From contig SPQJ01000001.1 in assembly GCA_004570425.1 (NCBI GenBank), positions 1-64,000 on the forward strand: a DNA stretch of 64,000 nucleotides. The letters are read 5' to 3'. The position numbers and the translations under genes are program-made. Below, piece after piece: positions 1,794 through 14,160 of this stretch. The notes under the pieces were generated by a model, which had not been told where the DNA came from, did no database searches, and saw only the letters and a list, made by a program, of their open reading frames with translations. The stretch is from Bacillus sp. AZ43 (GTDB taxonomy: Bacteria; Actinomycetota; Actinomycetes; Mycobacteriales; Geodermatophilaceae). Each line of letters begins with the position of its first letter. Positions within the stretch are counted from its first letter, which is position 1.

Positions 1794-1817
1794 GCACCCT
1801 GCGGCCAGGGACGACTC

Positions 1818-1845
1818 AGGCCGCCCTCCCGGAGGAGGACGGCCT
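1818..1845 (-). terminator. Original terminator of tRNA-Ala, left of the element
   Basis: A GC-rich inverted repeat (AGGCCG...CGGCCT arms with a CCCTCC/AGGAGG inner stem) lies a few bases beyond the tRNA 3' fragment on the minus strand. A variant copy at 13884-13911 occupies the same place after the intact tRNA. The two copies differ at only a few positions, so this is most simply the native terminator separated from its tRNA by integration. Confidence 0.6.
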
Positions 1846-1853
1846 GGTCGACG

Positions 1854-1898
1854 GGGTGGAGCTGAGGGGACTCGAACCCCTGACCCCCACACTGCCAG
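1854..1898 (-). repeat. attL: exact 45-bp core, fragment of tRNA-Ala (positions 32-73)
   Basis: Identical to 13920-13964. Bases 1857-1898 correspond to tRNA nucleotides 32-73 (anticodon loop, variable loop, T arm, 3' acceptor strand). The sequence beyond 1898 has no tRNA 5' half, so this is not a functional gene. Weaker similarity extends left through the terminator, giving 94 aligned bases without a gap (1805-1898 against 13871-13964). Confidence 0.9.
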
Positions 1899-2139: not shown

Positions 2140-3888
2140 TCATCGGGTTGCGCCCGCGGTGCCAGCGTCCGCGATTCGCGTGCGCGGGGTCCCGTTCGCA
2201 GCTGCGAGGTAGGCCGGGTCCGAGCACAAACATCCTGATGTGCGTTGCCGGGGCCGGTTGATGACCTGAGGCAGTCCTCGAAGCAGGTCTAGACGCGCTT
2301 CCACCGGTTGTGCTCGACGCTCGCGCATCGCGGGCACGTGCGCGGCGTAGTACGTAACCGCCAGCATGATGCCTGCCAGGGCCGACTGGTGGGCGAGGGG
2401 AACGAGCGCGTCGTCGGGCTCGTCGCTGCCGGGCACGCGCATGAGCCCGCCGGCGCAGACACCGTCGCGATACAGCTGACCGATTGGCATGCCTGCCCAG
2501 TGTGCGGCTTCCTCGGGCGAGACCCGTCCCGCCGCCACGAGATCGCCGAGCAGTGGCTGGGTCAGCCACATGCCGGCCTCGGGGGGCGCCGGCAGGTCGG
2601 GCACGGTCGCCAGCAGCGGAAGCGGTGCGCCGACCGGCGCGCCGGTGATCAGGTAGGTCAGTACCCGGAGCGGGTGTTGTGCGAGGGCGGCGGCGATGAG
2701 TTCGTGTTCGTTGGGTCGTTCTCGGTCGGGGTAGTAAAGGCAAGCTAGGCACGGCTGGACGCCGAATTGCTCGTGTCGCGACCAGCCAATGTCCGTGGGC
2801 TGAGTCCACGCGTTGTACGCGGCGTTCGGCAGTGCGGCGGCAACGGTGATCCGGTCGGCTGCGCTGTCGAGCGCGGTCAGGACCGTCTCGGTGCCGGGTC
2901 CGGTCCGGGCGTCGGCGCCCCACGGGGTCGGGACCGGTTGGACCGTCAGCTTCGATCCAAATGCTGCCGCTTGCGCGACCTCGACCTTGGCTTGCCGGAC
3001 GCTGGTGTCGTCGGTGAGCAGGTAGCGCTGCAGGTTCGACAACGTGATTTCTTGCGGGTCGACGACGGTGACGGTCGCGGTCACGTCCGCGTGGATGAGC
3101 GCCCACAGGCATGCCTGACCGATGGCGCCGGCGCCGACGAGCGTCACAGGCGGCAACTCCGGTTGTGGTTCATCGGGGGATGGGCCGACCCAAACCTCGT
3201 CGGTGGCGGCGTCGGCCGAGGTGTCGCCGGTGAGCAGGTTGATCGATCCGGGTTGCCGGCCGGCTCGGCCGCGGTCGGCGAGAGCGTCGGCGAACGCGGC
3301 GCGGAACACCTCGCCCATGCCCAGCGCGACGGCCGCGGCGTTAGCTAGCGGGTGCGCGGCCGGATTGCTTTCGCCGTCGCCGAGGGAGCGGCGGAGTGCG
3401 CCGGAGCGGTCCGGCGGCGTTGGGTCGATGGCAATTGTCCATCCGGTCGCGCCGATGCCAATGATGTCGGCAGCGCCGGGACTGTCCCACACCAGGTGCA
3501 GGTGGCGGCGGGGGTCCGCGCTGGCGTCGGTGCCGACGCTGTTGTCATGGCCGCTGTTGTCGTGGCCACCGTCGTGCTCGTGCTGGCGGACTGTGGCGTC
3601 GACTCGGTGCTCATCGGTGACGGTGGTCAGGTGCCCGCCGGGGTGGATCGCGCTCGCAAGCGCCTGCGCCTGCGCCAACCAGCCCGGGTCGCCGTGCAAC
3701 GTGATGTTCGGATACAGCCGGGCGGCGAGGTTGACCGCAAGCAGGCTCGCCCGGGCGCGTTCGCTGTCGCCGGGGGCATGGATGTGCACTTCGATCGTGT
3801 CCAGGTGTGCCGCGAGCGCATCACGGTCGAGCCCGGCGACCGGGGTGAGTGCGTCGGCGACGCGGGAGAAGAACCTCGGCAAGGTCAT
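2140..3888 (-). CDS. E1-like/ThiF-type adenylyltransferase of the Ub-like system
   Basis: A 582-residue protein that should adenylate the C-terminal glycine of the neighbouring Ub-like modifier. The active ThiF/E1 fold starts near residue 247: nucleotide loop VGAGAIG (251-257), VVDP with Asp277, then SNLQRY (Asn285, Arg288) and a lysine at 301, all at canonical spacing. Cysteine pairs Cys380/Cys383 and Cys553/Cys555 could form a zinc site; Cys478 (GVCAGG) is a candidate thioester cysteine. Residues 1-240 look like a degenerate second Rossmann/E1-like half lacking the glycine loop, with a His/Asp-rich insert near 102-118. The ATG at 3888 overlaps the JAB stop (ATGA). It is last in the operon, the position of the E1 in Bil operons. 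Confidence 0.85.
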   Translation of the reverse strand: MTLPRFFSRVADALTPVAGLDRDALAAHLDTIEVHIHAPGDSERARASLLAVNLAARLYPNITLHGDPGWLAQAQALASAIHPGGHLTTVTDEHRVDATVRQHEHDGGHDNSGHDNSVGTDASADPRRHLHLVWDSPGAADIIGIGATGWTIAIDPTPPDRSGALRRSLGDGESNPAAHPLANAAAVALGMGEVFRAAFADALADRGRAGRQPGSINLLTGDTSADAATDEVWVGPSPDEPQPELPPVTLVGAGAIGQACLWALIHADVTATVTVVDPQEITLSNLQRYLLTDDTSVRQAKVEVAQAAAFGSKLTVQPVPTPWGADARTGPGTETVLTALDSAADRITVAAALPNAAYNAWTQPTDIGWSRHEQFGVQPCLACLYYPDRERPNEHELIAAALAQHPLRVLTYLITGAPVGAPLPLLATVPDLPAPPEAGMWLTQPLLGDLVAAGRVSPEEAAHWAGMPIGQLYRDGVCAGGLMRVPGSDEPDDALVPLAHQSALAGIMLAVTYYAAHVPAMRERRAQPVEARLDLLRGLPQVINRPRQRTSGCLCSDPAYLAAANGTPRTRIADAGTAGATR

Positions 3889-4388
3889 GGGGCTGTCCCT
3901 GGATTGATCTCGACGCGATCCGCTGCGGTCAGCGGGTCCCACTTGCCGGTGCCGACCAGGCGATACCACGCCCACCGCTCGATGTCGCCCGGCGCGTTGA
4001 ACGCAAAGTCCGGGATCACAAGCGACAGTGCGCCGGTGAGAGTGACCAGCGGATTGTGGTCGTCGGTGTCGGAGTGGTATGCGTCGGTCGGATGTGAGTG
4101 GATTTGCCCAGCGAGCACCTCCCCGCGGCTGTACAGGGTCCGGTTCACGTCAAACAACGCCTCGCCGTCGACGGTGACCAGGAGCCCGTGTGCGGTCTTG
4201 TGTGCGGTCTGCGCGGGGGCGATTACCGAGTCGAACACGACCTGGTGGCCGTCGCGCGAGACCCGTCCGCCCCAGAGCACGAATGCTTCGAATCCGCGTC
4301 GGCCGGCGTCGCGGAGGATCTCCAGAGTCTGCAGCATCCGGTCGGTGTCGATGCGGAAGTCCCGGACCCGCTCCAGTGGGCTGCTCAC
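3885..4388 (-). CDS. JAB/JAMM metalloprotease (deubiquitinase-like)
   Basis: A 167-residue Mov34/MPN-type protein. Glu34 precedes a hydrophobic strand, and the JAMM zinc signature follows as HSHPTDAYHSDTD: His97, His99, Ser106 and Asp109. The spacing is one residue shorter than the usual H-x-H-x7-S-x2-D. Family members cleave isopeptide or linear bonds after a Ub-like Gly-Gly, or trim the modifier. Because this modifier already ends in Gly-Gly, removal from targets is the likelier role. The GTG start at 4388 overlaps the stop of the gene before it (GTGA), and the stop overlaps the E1 start, so translation is tightly coupled. Confidence 0.85.
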   Translation of the reverse strand: MSSPLERVRDFRIDTDRMLQTLEILRDAGRRGFEAFVLWGGRVSRDGHQVVFDSVIAPAQTAHKTAHGLLVTVDGEALFDVNRTLYSRGEVLAGQIHSHPTDAYHSDTDDHNPLVTLTGALSLVIPDFAFNAPGDIERWAWYRLVGTGKWDPLTAADRVEINPGTAP

Positions 4389-5278
4389 GGCAACAATGGC
4401 CCTTGCGCCTGCGCGGCCCCCATCGGCTGCGCGGCCTGCATGGCTTGGGCCTGCGCGGCCGCCGCGTCCAGCCCATTGGGGGCGCCCGGCAGGGCGGTCA
4501 GGTCGCCTTGGGCGATGGCCACCTGAAGCTCGGTGCCGACAGCGGGTGGGAACGCCTGCATGGTCACGCGCAGTCCGATGACGTTGACGACCATCCGTTG
4601 CCAGATCCGCTCGCAGATGACGGCGATCCGTCCTGCGCCCGAGCGCCGGTGCAGCAGCCAGTCGTCGCCGGAGTGCTGGGGGTGGCTGTGGTATTCGCGG
4701 ATGCCGGGAAGGCACAGAAACGGCAGACCGGTGACCGGGTGGTTCTCCACCAGCGCATCGCGCACCCCGTGCTCGCCGTTGGCGGGGGCCCGAACGACGG
4801 GAGGGGCCGGCTGGCGGGTCCGCGGGTCGATGAACGTGACACTCGGCGGCCACAGGTCGTAGTTGGTGTAGTCGATGCGAACGCAGGCGGTGATGACTGG
4901 GGCGGCGAGAACTCCGACCAGTGGAACGCTCGCGACGAACGCGATGTCAACCTGCTGTTCGGTGTGCTCGAGCATCACCCACCCACGCCGTTGGTAGATC
5001 TCGGCGTTTGCCTGCCAGTCACACAGTTCCGCCTGAAGTTTTGCCGCGGTCACCTGCTCGGGCACCAACGCGGGCACCGGTCCGGGCTTGGGGACACCGT
5101 CAGCGACGCTCTCGACAGCGTGGCCGGGCTCGCCGAAACCGCGGTGCCCGCTGGCCGGGTGGCCGTCGGCGGGAGATGACTGCCCGTTGACCGGCTCGCG
5201 ATCGCCGATCCCGACCGGGCCGTCACGCTCGGCCGGGTTGACGTCCGCGCGCCCGTAGGCGTCGGCCCGGTCAGCCAC
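4385..5278 (-). CDS. E2-like / predicted metal-binding CEHH protein of the Ub-like system
   Basis: A 297-residue protein in the E2 slot of the operon. Residues 1-75 are a low-complexity Gly/Pro/Asp-rich leader and the last 35 are Gln/Ala/Pro-rich. The core at about 76-250 contains ENHPVTGLPFLCLPG, which recalls the His-Pro...Gly...Cys-Leu active-site loop of UBC enzymes with Cys189 as the candidate catalytic residue. The same stretch also gives Cys189-x5-Glu195-x-His197-x-His199, the spacing of the predicted metal-binding CEHH domain linked to bacterial Ub-like operons. Trp207 follows. I cannot decide between thioester carrier and metal enzyme without structure prediction. The GTG start at 5278 overlaps the modifier stop by eight bases. 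Confidence 0.65.
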   Translation of the reverse strand: MADRADAYGRADVNPAERDGPVGIGDREPVNGQSSPADGHPASGHRGFGEPGHAVESVADGVPKPGPVPALVPEQVTAAKLQAELCDWQANAEIYQRRGWVMLEHTEQQVDIAFVASVPLVGVLAAPVITACVRIDYTNYDLWPPSVTFIDPRTRQPAPPVVRAPANGEHGVRDALVENHPVTGLPFLCLPGIREYHSHPQHSGDDWLLHRRSGAGRIAVICERIWQRMVVNVIGLRVTMQAFPPAVGTELQVAIAQGDLTALPGAPNGLDAAAAQAQAMQAAQPMGAAQAQGPLLP

Positions 5279-5546
5279 CGGCGCCGGCCCGCGGGTTCAG
5301 AAACAGCGTTTCGCCCTCGTGCAGCCCGGCGTCGGCGGCCCGCTGGGACTGCGGGAGAAGTGCACCGCTCTGGGTGCGCAGCTCCCAGTCCGCGGGCGGC
5401 TGGCCGACGTTGCCGGACTCCTTCAACGCGTCGCGCACCAGGTGCTCGAGCGTCTGGTTCGACTTCACGTGGGCCGGGACGGGCGAGCCGGAGACGACGA
5501 CGATCACGTCGAAGTCGGTGGGCTTGTGTTGAGACTGACCGGACAT
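5271..5546 (-). CDS. Ubiquitin-like beta-grasp modifier ending in Gly-Gly
   Basis: A 91-residue protein, first gene of the operon. After a short polar leader it has an opening strand FDVIVVVSG, a helix around LEHLVRDALKESG (33-45), the strand WELRTQSG and a closing strand ETLFLNP, the order of a beta-grasp fold. The last residues are RAGAGG, so the protein ends exactly at Gly90-Gly91 and needs no processing before adenylation. It resembles DUF2604-type Ub-like proteins. It is a single domain, not the fused double domain or polyubiquitin seen in some related operons. The ATG at 5546 was chosen because upstream codons run through the hairpin-rich leader and are not protein-like. Confidence 0.8.
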   Translation of the reverse strand: MSGQSQHKPTDFDVIVVVSGSPVPAHVKSNQTLEHLVRDALKESGNVGQPPADWELRTQSGALLPQSQRAADAGLHEGETLFLNPRAGAGG

Positions 5547-5796: not shown

Positions 5797-6498
5797 GTGA
5801 CCAGGCCGGACATGGCTACCAGGGCAAGCGCCCTGCTGTTGGCTGTTGCTGCCGGGCGTCCTGGCGCGGCGACCGAGCTGGCCACCGAGCTGTACAAGGT
5901 CCTGTTTGCCGCCGCTCGCAAGCGGGCGAGGGCCGTCGGTGGGCGCGTCCGTGCCGGGACCGATGGGATCGCGATACCGCCGGTGCCGCCGGCGGACTGG
6001 GATTCGGTCGCCCATGACGTGACCGTGCATGCGCTGAACCGGCTGGTGGCGAACGCCCGCCGATTCGACCCCGACCGCGGCGACGGGCTGATGTGGGCGC
6101 TGCGGCAGGTGAACTTGTCCTACGTCGACGTCGTGCGCGACACCTACCAGTTGCGGCGGGCCCTGCGTGCGGTTCCTACCGATGACGAGCAACTCATTCC
6201 GGTCGCCGAGGCCCGCCGGCCGGGCCCGGACACGGCCGCGCTCGTGGAGGCCCGCCAGCAGTTGGACGCTGCGCTCGCCGCGCTGACGCTCGAGGAACGG
6301 CAGGTCACCCTGGCGCTCTCTCACTACGGCTACAGCTACGCTGAGACCGCGCAGTTGGTGTTCGGTGAAGCCGCCGCGACCGGGCGAGTGGACCGTGTCC
6401 GGCGCTCGGCGAAACGGAAGTTGACGCTGGCCGAGGCCCGCTGGCGAGCATCCGCCGATGACGCTCCAGCCGCCGAAGCACCCGGAAACGATGGTTGA
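5797..6498 (+). CDS. ECF-like sigma factor, divergent from the Ub-like operon
   Basis: A 233-residue protein (GTG at 5797; ATG at 5812 is the alternative). Residues 70-120 resemble sigma region 2: VAHDVTVHAL, then ANARRFDPDRGDGLMWALRQV and an arginine-rich helix. Residues 155-212 resemble region 4: ALTLEERQVTLALSHYGYSYAE, then an insert and VDRVRRSAKRKL in place of the usual tight helix-turn-helix. It lacks a clear anti-sigma partner. Its divergent position beside the modifier operon suggests that it drives that operon or the small gene downstream. Region 4 is unusual enough that it could be a sigma-derived regulator that does not bind core polymerase. Confidence 0.65.
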   Translation: MTRPDMATRASALLLAVAAGRPGAATELATELYKVLFAAARKRARAVGGRVRAGTDGIAIPPVPPADWDSVAHDVTVHALNRLVANARRFDPDRGDGLMWALRQVNLSYVDVVRDTYQLRRALRAVPTDDEQLIPVAEARRPGPDTAALVEARQQLDAALAALTLEERQVTLALSHYGYSYAETAQLVFGEAAATGRVDRVRRSAKRKLTLAEARWRASADDAPAAEAPGNDG

Positions 6499-6604: not shown

Positions 6605-6853
6605 ATGGCGACGATGAGCACTCATGACGCGGCTGCGTCGCGTGTACCGACCTTCGACGAGCTGCTAGCCGACCCGAGCGAGCAGTTCGATGTTCGCTCG
6701 GAGCTGCTCGCCAGTGTGCTCACCTATCTGTCTGCGCCGCCGGCGACAGCGGGCACCCAGCCTTGGCATCCCAACGTGGGCCCGAGCCACGCGTGGCTGT
6801 TTGCACCATCATCGACCCCCGGAGCCACTACCGGCGGTATCGCAGTCGCCTGA
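6605..6853 (+). CDS. Small hypothetical protein downstream of the sigma gene
   Basis: An 82-residue protein starting MATMSTHDAA with GGAGG at 6598-6602, three bases before the ATG; the second ATG, nine bases on, is also plausible. An acidic amphipathic segment (FDELLADPSEQFDVRSELL, about 17-35) is followed by a Pro/Gly/Thr-rich tail with scattered tryptophans (QPWHPNVGPSHAWLF). It has no cysteine, membrane segment or known motif. It lies 106 bp after the sigma gene on the same strand and could be a regulator or partner of it, but nothing in the sequence shows this. Confidence 0.4.
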   Translation: MATMSTHDAAASRVPTFDELLADPSEQFDVRSELLASVLTYLSAPPATAGTQPWHPNVGPSHAWLFAPSSTPGATTGGIAVA

Positions 6854-12377: not shown

Positions 12378-12620
12378 ATGGGTGACCCTCAGCCGCTCCG
12401 GCACGTCCTGGCCGGCCACCGGCTCCTCCTCACGCCCGAAGAGGCAGCGGAGGTCCTCCGCATCGGTCGCACGACGGTGTACGCCCTCATGAAGAGCGGG
12501 GAGCTGCGTCCTGTGCACATCGGCCGCAGCTGCCGGATATCCCAGGCGGAGGTCGAGCGCTACGTCCGCCGGCTCCAGGCTCAGCCGTTCCTTCCACATC
12601 CTTCGCCGGACGCCGCGTGA
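12378..12620 (+). CDS. Excisionase-like MerR-type helix-turn-helix protein
   Basis: An 80-residue protein with one winged-helix domain: LLTPEEAAEVLRIGRTTVYALMKSG (17-41), then VHIGRSCRISQAEVERYVRRL. This is the small excisionase/AlpA-type DNA-binding fold that recognises att arms and biases the integrase toward excision. GAGAGG lies about ten bases before the ATG. It sits 73 bp upstream of the integrase gene, the usual xis-int order in actinobacterial elements. It might instead repress the integrase promoter. Confidence 0.82.
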   Translation: MGDPQPLRHVLAGHRLLLTPEEAAEVLRIGRTTVYALMKSGELRPVHIGRSCRISQAEVERYVRRLQAQPFLPHPSPDAA

Positions 12621-12693: not shown

Positions 12694-14160
12694 ATGGCGG
12701 GACGCGCGGCGAACGGCGAGTCGACGATCTACAAGGGCGCCGACGGGCGGTGGCACGGCTACGTCTCCGTCGGGTTCAGACTCGACGGCAAGCTCGACCG
12801 CCGGCACGTCAGCAGCAAGAACCGCGGCGTCGTGGTCGCGAAGGTCCGAGAGCTCGAGCGTCAGCGCGACACCGGGACCATCACCGAGACGTCGGCACCC
12901 ACCGTGGCGACGTGGCTCGAGCACTGGCTGACCACCATCGCGCCACGCCGCGTGCGACAGCGGACGCTGGAGAGCTACGAGTCGGCGGTCCGCAGGCACC
13001 TGATCCCCAGCATCGGCCGGCACCGCCTCGACCGGCTGCGGCCGGAGCATCTGGACCAGCTCTACACGGCCTTGCTCGACGCCGGCTACTCCCCCGCGTC
13101 GGTGCTCCGCCACCACCACCGGATCCTGTCCCGGGCCCTCACCGTCGCCGTCCAGCGCGGCCACGTCCCGCGCAACGTCGCCGCACTCGTCGACCCGCCC
13201 GCCCAGCGGCCGAGCGACCTCGCGACCGCCCTGGACCTCGACGAGGCCCGCGCCGTCCTGGAAGCCGCCGCGACCGTCCGCAACTCGGCCCGCTGGACGG
13301 TCGCCCTGGCCCTCGGGCTCCGCCAGTCCGAGGCGCTCGCCCTGCAGTGGAAGGACATCGACCTGCTGAACACCACCCTCACGGTCCGGCGCAGCATCCA
13401 CCGGGTCCGCGGCGGCGGGCTGATCTACGAGGAGCCCAAGAGCAAGCGCAGCCAGCGCACCCTGGCGCTCCCGCTACCGCTCGTCGCCGAACTGCACCGG
13501 CACAAGGCCGCGCAGCTCGGCGAGCGGATGCTGGCCGGCTCCGAATGGCACGACGAGGACCTCGTCTTCGCCCAGCCCAACGGCCGGCCGATCGACAAGA
13601 AGACCGACTACGACGACTGGACGCGGCTGCTGCAGAGGGCAGGCGTTCGCCACGTCCGCCTGCACGACGGGCGGCACACCGCCGCAACCCTGCTGCTGAC
13701 CGAGAACGTCCACCCGCGGGTGGTCATGGAGCTGCTCGGCCACAGCCAGATGCGCACGACCATGGACATCTACAGCCACGTCATGCCGGCCCTCGCCCGG
13801 GAGGCAGCCGACCGGATGGGCGCCCTGCTGCTGCCAGGTAAGGGCAGGCAAACTGCAACCACAACTGCAACCAGAGACGACTCAGGCCGCCCTCCCGAGG
13901 GAGAACGGCCTGGTCAGACGGGTGGAGCTGAGGGGACTCGAACCCCTGACCCCCACACTGCCAGTGTGGTGCGCTACCAGCTGCGCCACAGCCCCGAACC
14001 GACCCGGTCTGGTGCGTCCGAGCCGGGAGCAACTGTACAGGCCCCGGTGAGTGGACCGGCGGAGGGGTGGGCGACGCGGCGAACGGGTCAGGGCTGCTTC
14101 ATCTGCGCGATGCGGATGTGGTTGCCGAACGGGTCGCGGAGGCCGAAGTCGATGCCGTAG
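12694..14160 (+). CDS. Tyrosine site-specific integrase (frame extended into host DNA by integration)
   Basis: The N-terminal arm-binding region (about 9-45) and the SAM-like core-binding domain (67-165) precede the catalytic domain. Catalytic residues are Arg210 (LGLRQSEAL), Lys249/251 (EEPKSK), His324 and Arg327 (HDGRH), His350 (LLGH) and the nucleophile Tyr360 (DIYSHV). AAGGGG lies eight bases before the ATG. As integrated, the frame runs through attR, antisense to the tRNA and into the neighbouring gene, giving 488 residues. In the closed circle the codons after the core come from 1899 onward and reach TGA at 1906-1908, giving 426. Residues 424-488 are therefore an artefact of the junction. 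It should recombine in the tRNA anticodon loop. Confidence 0.9.
   Translation: MAGRAANGESTIYKGADGRWHGYVSVGFRLDGKLDRRHVSSKNRGVVVAKVRELERQRDTGTITETSAPTVATWLEHWLTTIAPRRVRQRTLESYESAVRRHLIPSIGRHRLDRLRPEHLDQLYTALLDAGYSPASVLRHHHRILSRALTVAVQRGHVPRNVAALVDPPAQRPSDLATALDLDEARAVLEAAATVRNSARWTVALALGLRQSEALALQWKDIDLLNTTLTVRRSIHRVRGGGLIYEEPKSKRSQRTLALPLPLVAELHRHKAAQLGERMLAGSEWHDEDLVFAQPNGRPIDKKTDYDDWTRLLQRAGVRHVRLHDGRHTAATLLLTENVHPRVVMELLGHSQMRTTMDIYSHVMPALAREAADRMGALLLPGKGRQTATTTATRDDSGRPPEGERPGQTGGAEGTRTPDPHTASVVRYQLRHSPEPTRSGASEPGATVQAPVSGPAEGWATRRTGQGCFICAMRMWLPNGSRRPKSMP
13851..13873 (+). repeat. Right arm repeats: two AACTGCAACCA copies
   Basis: Copies at 13851-13861 and 13863-13873, 12-bp period, 46 bp inside the right core and embedded in the last codons of the integrase. 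They match the left pair (2015-2037) in sequence, orientation and period, the arrangement expected of attP arm sites. Occupancy by integrase could also affect transcription of its own 3' end. Confidence 0.65.
13884..13911 (-). terminator. Element-borne terminator for the reconstituted tRNA-Ala
   Basis: Inverted repeat AGGCCG...CGGCCT with CCCTCCC/GGGAG inner pairing, twelve bases past the tRNA 3' end on the minus strand. It is nearly the same as 1818-1845. The element therefore supplies both the tRNA 3' half and a substitute terminator, keeping the tRNA expressed after insertion. Confidence 0.6.
13920..13964 (-). repeat. attR: exact 45-bp core within tRNA-Ala
   Basis: Identical to 1854-1898. 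It spans tRNA positions 32-73 plus three bases past the 3' end, and joins the host 5' half of the tRNA at the anticodon loop. The integrase frame also runs across it. Confidence 0.9.
13923..13995 (-). tRNA. tRNA-Ala (GGC anticodon)
   Basis: A 73-nt cloverleaf on the minus strand: acceptor GGGGCTG/CAGCTCC, D arm GCGC/GCGC, anticodon stem CCACA/TGTGG around loop CTGGCAG (anticodon GGC, reading GCC), 5-nt variable loop, T arm AGGGG-TTCGAGT-CCCCT, discriminator A. CCA is not encoded. It is the integration target; the 5' half is host and the 3' half comes from the element. Confidence 0.95.

Follow-up and report, generated by a model that had tools for sequence, protein, structure and literature searches.

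The window analysed here, a stretch of 64,000 nucleotides at the start of contig SPQJ01000001.1 of Bacillus sp. AZ43 (GCA_004570425.1; Geodermatophilaceae of the Actinomycetota in GTDB), carries four genes on its minus strand that run from position 5546 down to 2140. Read directly from the open reading frames (ORFs), they overlap by 8, 4 and 4 bp and encode, in this order, a ubiquitin-like (Ubl) modifier, an E2-like protein, a JAB/JAMM peptidase and an E1-like adenylating enzyme, the four-gene arrangement of bacterial ISG15-like (Bil) operons. Pfam matches are strong for the modifier, the E2 and the E1, and in the PDB each protein has its top match in a chain that bears the name of the corresponding component, Ubl(BilA), E2(BilB), DUB(BilC) or E1(BilD); PADLOC names BilC and BilD (Table 1). 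Third-position GC content lies between 0.82 and 0.89 across all four ORFs. From these matches to solved Bil proteins in all four components, the operon is identified as BilABCD, and it is a new divergent lineage inside the known Bil family, not a novel type of system. The first-pass annotation had read a Ubl conjugation operon here, with overlaps of 4–8 bases and the Bil-type order Ub-like, E2, JAB, E1, and both the overlaps and the order are borne out.

Relatives were collected by scanning genome contigs with an alignment of the E2, and 80 of the 84 found were taken in, so that together with four further loci (L006–L009) and the window 85 loci were compared. Because these loci are not independent (L012 lies on the same contig as L007, and a single E2 cluster holds 30 loci), they were reduced to 41 clusters at 85% E2 identity. 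E2, JAB and E1 are present in all 85 loci, and the Ubl-E2-JAB-E1 order is found in 84, the remaining one (L085) being without a detected Ubl; extra or split pieces occur in three of the ordered loci (L022, L055 and L066), the E2 of L066 being spread over two frames. The annotation of pNGR234a and of a Rhizobium plasmid lists a DUF2604 protein, a metal-binding protein, a Mov34/MPN/PAD-1 protein and an E2 ligase fold family C protein in the same order.

The modifier ends in RAGAGG with nothing after the Gly-Gly, and is homologous to the solved BilA. The ATG was chosen from the length of homologues, and as no stop closes the frame ahead of it, the start is uncertain. One published account words BilA as two consecutive Ubl domains (PMC11354881); the chains labelled BilA in the PDB also include single-domain forms (98 aa in 8tyx, 100 aa in 8tyz) besides chains of two-domain size (243 aa), and two Ubl domains are thus not a constant of the Bil family. 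Since the domain profile detects the C-terminal Ubl alone, ORF length served to count domains: in 27 of 40 distinct modifiers the stop-to-stop frame measures 150 aa or less, which leaves no room for two domains, and some longer modifiers, such as those of L068 and L075, have additional N-terminal sequence that is possibly a second domain. The single domain of the modifier, which the first-pass annotation had offered as a mark of a distinct subtype, consequently loses that value. Among the same 40 modifiers, the window's included, 21 end exactly at the terminal glycine, 15 continue for 1–3 residues and four have longer tails. Modifiers of Methylorubrum podarium (L017) and of an Acetobacteraceae metagenome-assembled genome (MAG; L072) read in frame into BilB with no stop, and could possibly be natural BilA-BilB fusions needing cleavage by BilC. 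Side matches of the window's modifier to YukD (1.6e-5; 26 bits, the cut-off being 27; kin in the Ubl fold) and DJ-1 (0.0056) in Pfam, and to EccD (0.0034) and PfpI (0.08) in NCBIfam, were set aside.

The E2-like protein carries the CEHH residues as C189, E195, H197 and H202, with a spacing identical to that of the motif published for BilB, Cys138, Glu144, His146 and His151 (in the description of PMC11354881). By direct pattern search this spacing is kept in all 85 loci, the window included, and in all 41 cluster rows, and as a trait common to the family it does not mark a subtype in the way the first-pass annotation had suggested. The start of BilB is uncertain between two GTG codons, codon 1, which overlaps the stop of the modifier, and codon 68, which is close to the point where homologues start. 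An AlphaFold2 model, built from 29 sequences, is confident over a core of about residues 70–233 and of low confidence at both ends; searched against the PDB, it matches at E ≤0.001 only three chains of 8tz0 and 8tyz, both BilABD complexes (best 2.6e-12, 36% identity). The fold prediction proposed at first pass thus returned the BilB fold for the E2, and for the modifier, the JAB protein and the E1 the match to solved Bil components is one of sequence. In the E2s of the window's clade the segment before the catalytic Cys is shortened and an earlier hairpin has an insertion, and long C-terminal ends are seen in the window and in two Nocardioides relatives.

Catalytic residues are likewise intact in the other two enzymes, and the Gly-Gly modifier, CEHH protein, JAB peptidase and E1 named at first pass are all borne out as intact. 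BilC of the window has E34, H97-x-H99, S106 and D109, E34 aligning with the site mutated in 8tyx_B (E33A), and the JAMM residues are kept in all 41 rows, that of the window among them; L053, L020 and L023 vary at D110, a residue distinct from the JAMM Asp. BilD, aligned with the solved E1 chain, has the nucleotide-site glycines of its adenylation domain, R288, K301 and D341, together with C380, C383, C478, C553 and C555. These five cysteines occur in every row that covers them, 38–39 of 41, with L015 and L022 being without the cysteine region and L066 without C553. Based on conservation, C478 is most likely the catalytic residue and C380, C383, C553 and C555 most likely form a structural metal site, a division we take from the ThiF/MoeB pattern and the order of the cysteines. 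Matches of the E1 to ApbA and saccharopine dehydrogenase in Pfam were set aside as side matches.

A ThiF domain in the E1, NCBIfam matches to MoeB/ThiF models at about 7e-8 and a Ubl-like modifier with a Gly-Gly end could also belong to a sulfur-carrier module (ThiS/MoaD with ThiF/MoeB) serving sulfur transfer in cofactor or natural-product synthesis, but a dedicated E2 with a catalytic Cys and a JAB peptidase accompany the E1 here, as in every one of the compared loci, ThiS is absent from the Pfam matches of the modifier, and no thiamine, molybdenum cofactor or cysteine gene was found among the 12 ORFs scanned in or beside the element described below. The genome's near full-length ThiF match and its three ThiS-family matches sit on other contigs, so that the sulfur-carrier neighbourhood named at first pass as a possible refutation did not materialise, and this explanation is extremely improbable. 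Another bacterial ubiquitination-like system that merely resembles Bil would be Bub (known here by name alone, as given in PMC13373217), Cap2/Cap3 of the cyclic oligonucleotide-based antiphage signalling system (CBASS), or 6A-MBL, and the E1 does weakly match E1-E2 fusion models in PADLOC (best 9e-5) and cap2_3 of 6A-MBL in NCBIfam (0.0011). The BilD match from the same library is nevertheless stronger than the fusion matches by about five orders of magnitude, E2, JAB and E1 are encoded by separate genes, neither a CD-NTase (cGAS/DncV-like nucleotidyltransferase) nor a metallo-beta-lactamase was found by Pfam among the same 12 ORFs, and every component has a Bil chain as its best solved match, which leaves such a system highly improbable.

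The operon lies within a 12-kb element integrated at a tRNA-Ala gene, confirming the mobile actinomycete island of the first-pass annotation. A tyrosine integrase sits by the tRNA, and direct repeats of the tRNA 3' end stand at both ends of the element (Table 1); the open frame of the integrase continues through the tRNA, making its true C-terminus uncertain. A Tmn-type NTPase is, from its family matches, a second defence-type cargo besides Bil in the same element, Tmn being described in PMC11846954 as a defence system with a KAP-family NTPase. The tRNA-Ala gene and its downstream DNA were matched in 15 of 16 genomes of the genus, own genome included, the match in G566 being interrupted for about 0.75 kb, and in G783 only the downstream part of the site was found, at a contig start. 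The left flank (1501–1798) gave short matches only among congeners. In G566, G668, G712 and G728 the contig that holds the site has extra partial copies of the tRNA end at distances of about 4.6 to 26 kb, a picture like that of an integration hotspot where elements are stacked.

Table 1. Features of the Bil locus and its element in the window, and of the compared loci (positions prefixed with the locus handle)
Feature	Position	Strand	Evidence or remark
BilA, single-domain ubiquitin-like modifier, 91 aa from ATG	5271..5546	-	DUF2604 4.7e-21; PDB 8tyx Ubl(BilA) 2.1e-12
BilB, E2-like CEHH protein, 297 aa from GTG	4385..5278	-	Metal_CEHH (PF14455) 1e-32; PDB 8tyz_C E2(BilB) 2.4e-26; AlphaFold2 model
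BilC, JAB/JAMM peptidase, 167 aa, GTG	3885..4388	-	PADLOC BilC 2.7e-12; PDB 8tyx_B DUB(BilC) 2.5e-27
BilD, E1-like adenylating enzyme, 582 aa, ATG	2140..3888	-	ThiF 8.6e-13; PADLOC BilD 4e-10; PDB 8tyz_A E1(BilD) 1.1e-39
Left attachment repeat with tRNA-Ala 3' fragment	1799..1898	.	100-nt direct repeat, 90% identical to 13865-13964
Right attachment repeat, overlapping 3' end of intact tRNA-Ala	13865..13964	.	direct repeat
tRNA-Ala (GGC), integration target	13921..13995	-	ARAGORN; site conserved within genus
Tyrosine integrase	12694..14160	+	Phage_integrase 1e-24, Phage_int_SAM_3 1.2e-9
Putative excisionase (HTH_17)	12378..12620	+	HTH_17 7.6e-17
YobI-like P-loop NTPase, Tmn-type, 1250 aa	7402..11154	-	YobI-ATPase 1.9e-106; PADLOC Tmn 6e-38
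Sigma-like protein, divergent from bilA, start 5797 or 5812	5797..6498	+	homologues by Bil in both Nocardioides loci
Short ORF, remnant or short version	6605..6853	+	aligns with C-terminal half of Nocardioides small protein, 43% and 36% identity
Sigma-like homologues upstream of Bil, Nocardioides	L010:4965-5690, L011:5166-5858		
Zeta_toxin-like kinase and small protein, Nocardioides	L010:5683-7445, L011:5840-7481		kinase 4.7e-18 and 6.6e-11
Divergent winged-helix gene, nine loci	L020:4448-5260, L056:3146-3856, L060:1431-2336, L062:6725-7702, L063:778-1368, L067:6746-7606, L073:6928-7716, L081:6733-7557, L141:8176-9486		
XRE and ImmA/IrrE-like genes with PIN-like gene	L006:2818-4578, L007:9829-11471	-	homologous in the two loci (homology taken from the first gene); family names by eye
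E2/JAB/E1-like cluster, weaker and divergent (G796)	L142:2484-5217		same family; no modifier detected

Judged from record titles and tree labels, Bil relatives are spread over alphaproteobacteria (mostly Mesorhizobium), Actinomycetota, Bacteroidota, Gallionellaceae, Gemmatimonadota, Acidobacteriota and Dormibacterota. Relatives on plasmids come from 12 records, all of Sinorhizobium, Rhizobium or Mesorhizobium, and a scan of phages and viral contigs gave no Bil relative at the sensitivity used. The presence of Bil in the genus and family of the window is sporadic: the E1 profile, at E up to 1e-20, matched four of 112 family genomes and one of 16 genus genomes, own genome included, the match in G796 being much weaker (1.6e-37) than the other three of the four family genomes. 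PF14455 was found in three of 396 sampled Actinomycetota genomes and two of 397 of the order, with the own genome again included in both counts. The G796 locus itself is a weaker, divergent E2/JAB/E1-like cluster (Table 1).

The E1 tree comprised 38 of the 41 clusters, the E1 pieces of L015, L022 and L066 being too short. In it the window is sister to Nocardioides alpinus (L010) and N. glacieisoli (L011) with support of 100/96, a Soudan actinomycete MAG (L007) joins next (100/100), and the clade so formed has a stem of 1.92 changes per column and stands apart from the rhizobial lineage. A second group of nine rows, seven of them Actinomycetota, is separate (100/99), and the actinomycete locus L006 falls outside both. 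Deeper reading of this tree is limited by its midpoint root, the very long branch of L085 and the composition of the window, which was flagged as unusual.

Candidate regulators recur upstream of actinobacterial Bil operons. The sigma-like gene of the window is divergent from bilA, and Sigma70_r4_2 is matched at 7.8e-8 in its homologue from N. alpinus and at 0.062 in the window's own protein; a PDB search with its profile gave no match up to E 0.1. As a marker of Bil the gene was rejected, for its profile, which scores 2e-109 on the window's own protein, matches 139 of 396 Actinomycetota genomes partially, like ordinary sigma factors, the best among the 395 others also being partial (5.7e-11). 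In both Nocardioides loci a Zeta_toxin-like kinase and a small protein are encoded between the sigma-like gene and Bil. In the second, mostly actinobacterial group, eight of nine rows (not L023; L081, one of the loci in Table 1, is Blastococcus sp. TF02A-35), as well as G798, carry a gene that runs divergently from bilA and contains a winged-helix part, and by eye its N-terminal part is possibly STAS-like. A profile of it gave weak PDB matches only, the best an IclR regulator at 0.003. CapS is presented in PMC13373217 as a STAS-wHTH repressor upstream of immune operons, five Bil operons among them, and the layout of the winged-helix gene recalls that of CapS, a likeness of layout only. Such recurring upstream regulators suggest that actinobacterial Bil operons are conditionally switched on. 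A homologous set of XRE, ImmA/IrrE-like and PIN-like genes was observed in L006, upstream and divergent from Bil, and in L007, downstream and convergent with it.

Decay of the window's copy into an inactive relic might be read from the shortness of the ORF at 6605–6853 in comparison with the Nocardioides protein and from the failure to see any counterpart of the Zeta-like kinase in the ORFs of the window, yet the four Bil frames are open and overlapping, their coding composition is kept and all catalytic residues are retained, so that an inactive copy is very unlikely. Given the matches of all four proteins to solved Bil components, the gene order, the conserved catalytic residues, the mobile, defensive setting (integrase, tRNA attachment repeats and Tmn-type NTPase) and the sporadic distribution, we assign a probability of about 0.88 to the reading that the locus is a complete, apparently intact BilABCD operon in a 12-kb tRNA-Ala element, with a proposed working by conjugation from BilD to BilB to target and removal by BilC.

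The chemical steps, the roles of the E1 residues, the target and the antiphage function are modelled on named relatives. BilD would adenylate the C-terminal Gly-Gly of BilA and then hold it as a thioester, most likely on C478; BilA would be handed to C189 of BilB, with a CEHH histidine as a catalytic helper, and BilB would attach it directly to targets. By analogy with the relatives these would be a protein of the phage virion, for example the central tail fibre. The tagged virion protein could then give rise to defective progeny particles, while BilC would take BilA off again, limiting harm to host proteins. Because BilA of the window already ends in Gly-Gly, BilC would not be needed for its maturation.

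The same cascade could alternatively conjugate BilA onto host proteins rather than phage proteins, in stress regulation or as an addiction-like pair of modification and demodification, the latter having been speculated upon in 2006 (PMC1779556). Selfish maintenance as discussed in that paper fits the sporadic, mobile distribution, and a sigma-like gene lies divergent from the operon; on the other side, a characterised relative is reported to target a phage tail fibre (PMC11364771), and a Tmn-type gene shares the element, and we consider a host target unlikely. This alternative has the identity and the cascade in common with the antiphage BilABCD reading, the target being the sole difference; the odds of the two therefore overlap, which is one of several points that weigh against the latter. 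PADLOC has no model match for the modifier and the E2 at E up to 1, NCBIfam has no Bil model matching any of the four proteins, and Prok-JAB reaches 23 bits for BilC against a Pfam cut-off of 25, thus staying under threshold. Furthermore, identity to relatives is modest, with a top value of 49% for the E1, the roles of the BilD cysteines rest on conservation, and BilA with 91 aa and one domain departs from the two-domain form.

Although single-domain modifiers and CEHH spacing do not define a subtype, one is possible on other grounds, namely the long-stemmed E1 clade and the altered E2 loops. The window, the two Nocardioides and the Soudan MAG might accordingly represent a functionally distinct actinobacterial Bil lineage with targets unlike the proteobacterial tail fibre, a tentative and rather doubtful proposal that is built on the long E1 stem, the remodelled E2 loop and a modifier mostly born mature (with one extra residue in the MAG). 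Under this proposal, the long disordered E2 ends of the window and Nocardioides may recruit targets, and the sigma-like regulator of the same loci would replace the winged-helix, perhaps STAS-like, regulator of the other group.

Pupylation is what actinobacteria are known for. The reach of Bil is widened by the presence of an E1-E2-Ubl-JAB cascade, complete and eukaryote-like, in an actinobacterial mobile defence element. As a divergent system with a modifier that should have no need of maturation, it would allow the deconjugating role of BilC to be examined separately from processing.

Among known systems, CBASS Cap2/Cap3 is described as a phage defence in which a deubiquitinase-like protein accompanies E1/E2 chemistry (PMC12355090), with E1 and E2 fused and a CD-NTase as the substrate, in contrast to the separate E1, E2 and Ubl of the window. 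The Bil system of Collimonas is of the same type by name and is likened here by description, not sequence; it is reported to tag the phage central tail fibre covalently (PMC11364771, summarising Hor 2024). Operon type 6c of Iyer et al. 2006, with its prototype on the megaplasmid of the rhizobium NGR234, was predicted there to be a Ub-like system by sequence analysis (PMC1779556), and the Bil-type locus on pNGR234a (L009) is taken to be this prototype on the basis of the plasmid, not of a locus tag. Identity of the window to the rhizobial copies L008 and L009 is about 30–40%. Nocardioides L010 and L011 share 45–50% identity with the window in E1, E2 and Ubl and have the sigma-like gene in common, but there this gene is co-directional with Bil and is followed by the Zeta_toxin-like kinase and a longer small protein. 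In comparison with the solved BilABCD (PDB 8tyx/8tyz/8tz0), of which the pNGR234a copy is a near relative, the window differs in the shorter E2 segment before the catalytic Cys, the long C-terminal end of the E2 and a BilA that ends at Gly-Gly, and it shares the four components, a single-domain BilA, a CEHH E2, a JAMM peptidase and aligned E1 cysteines.

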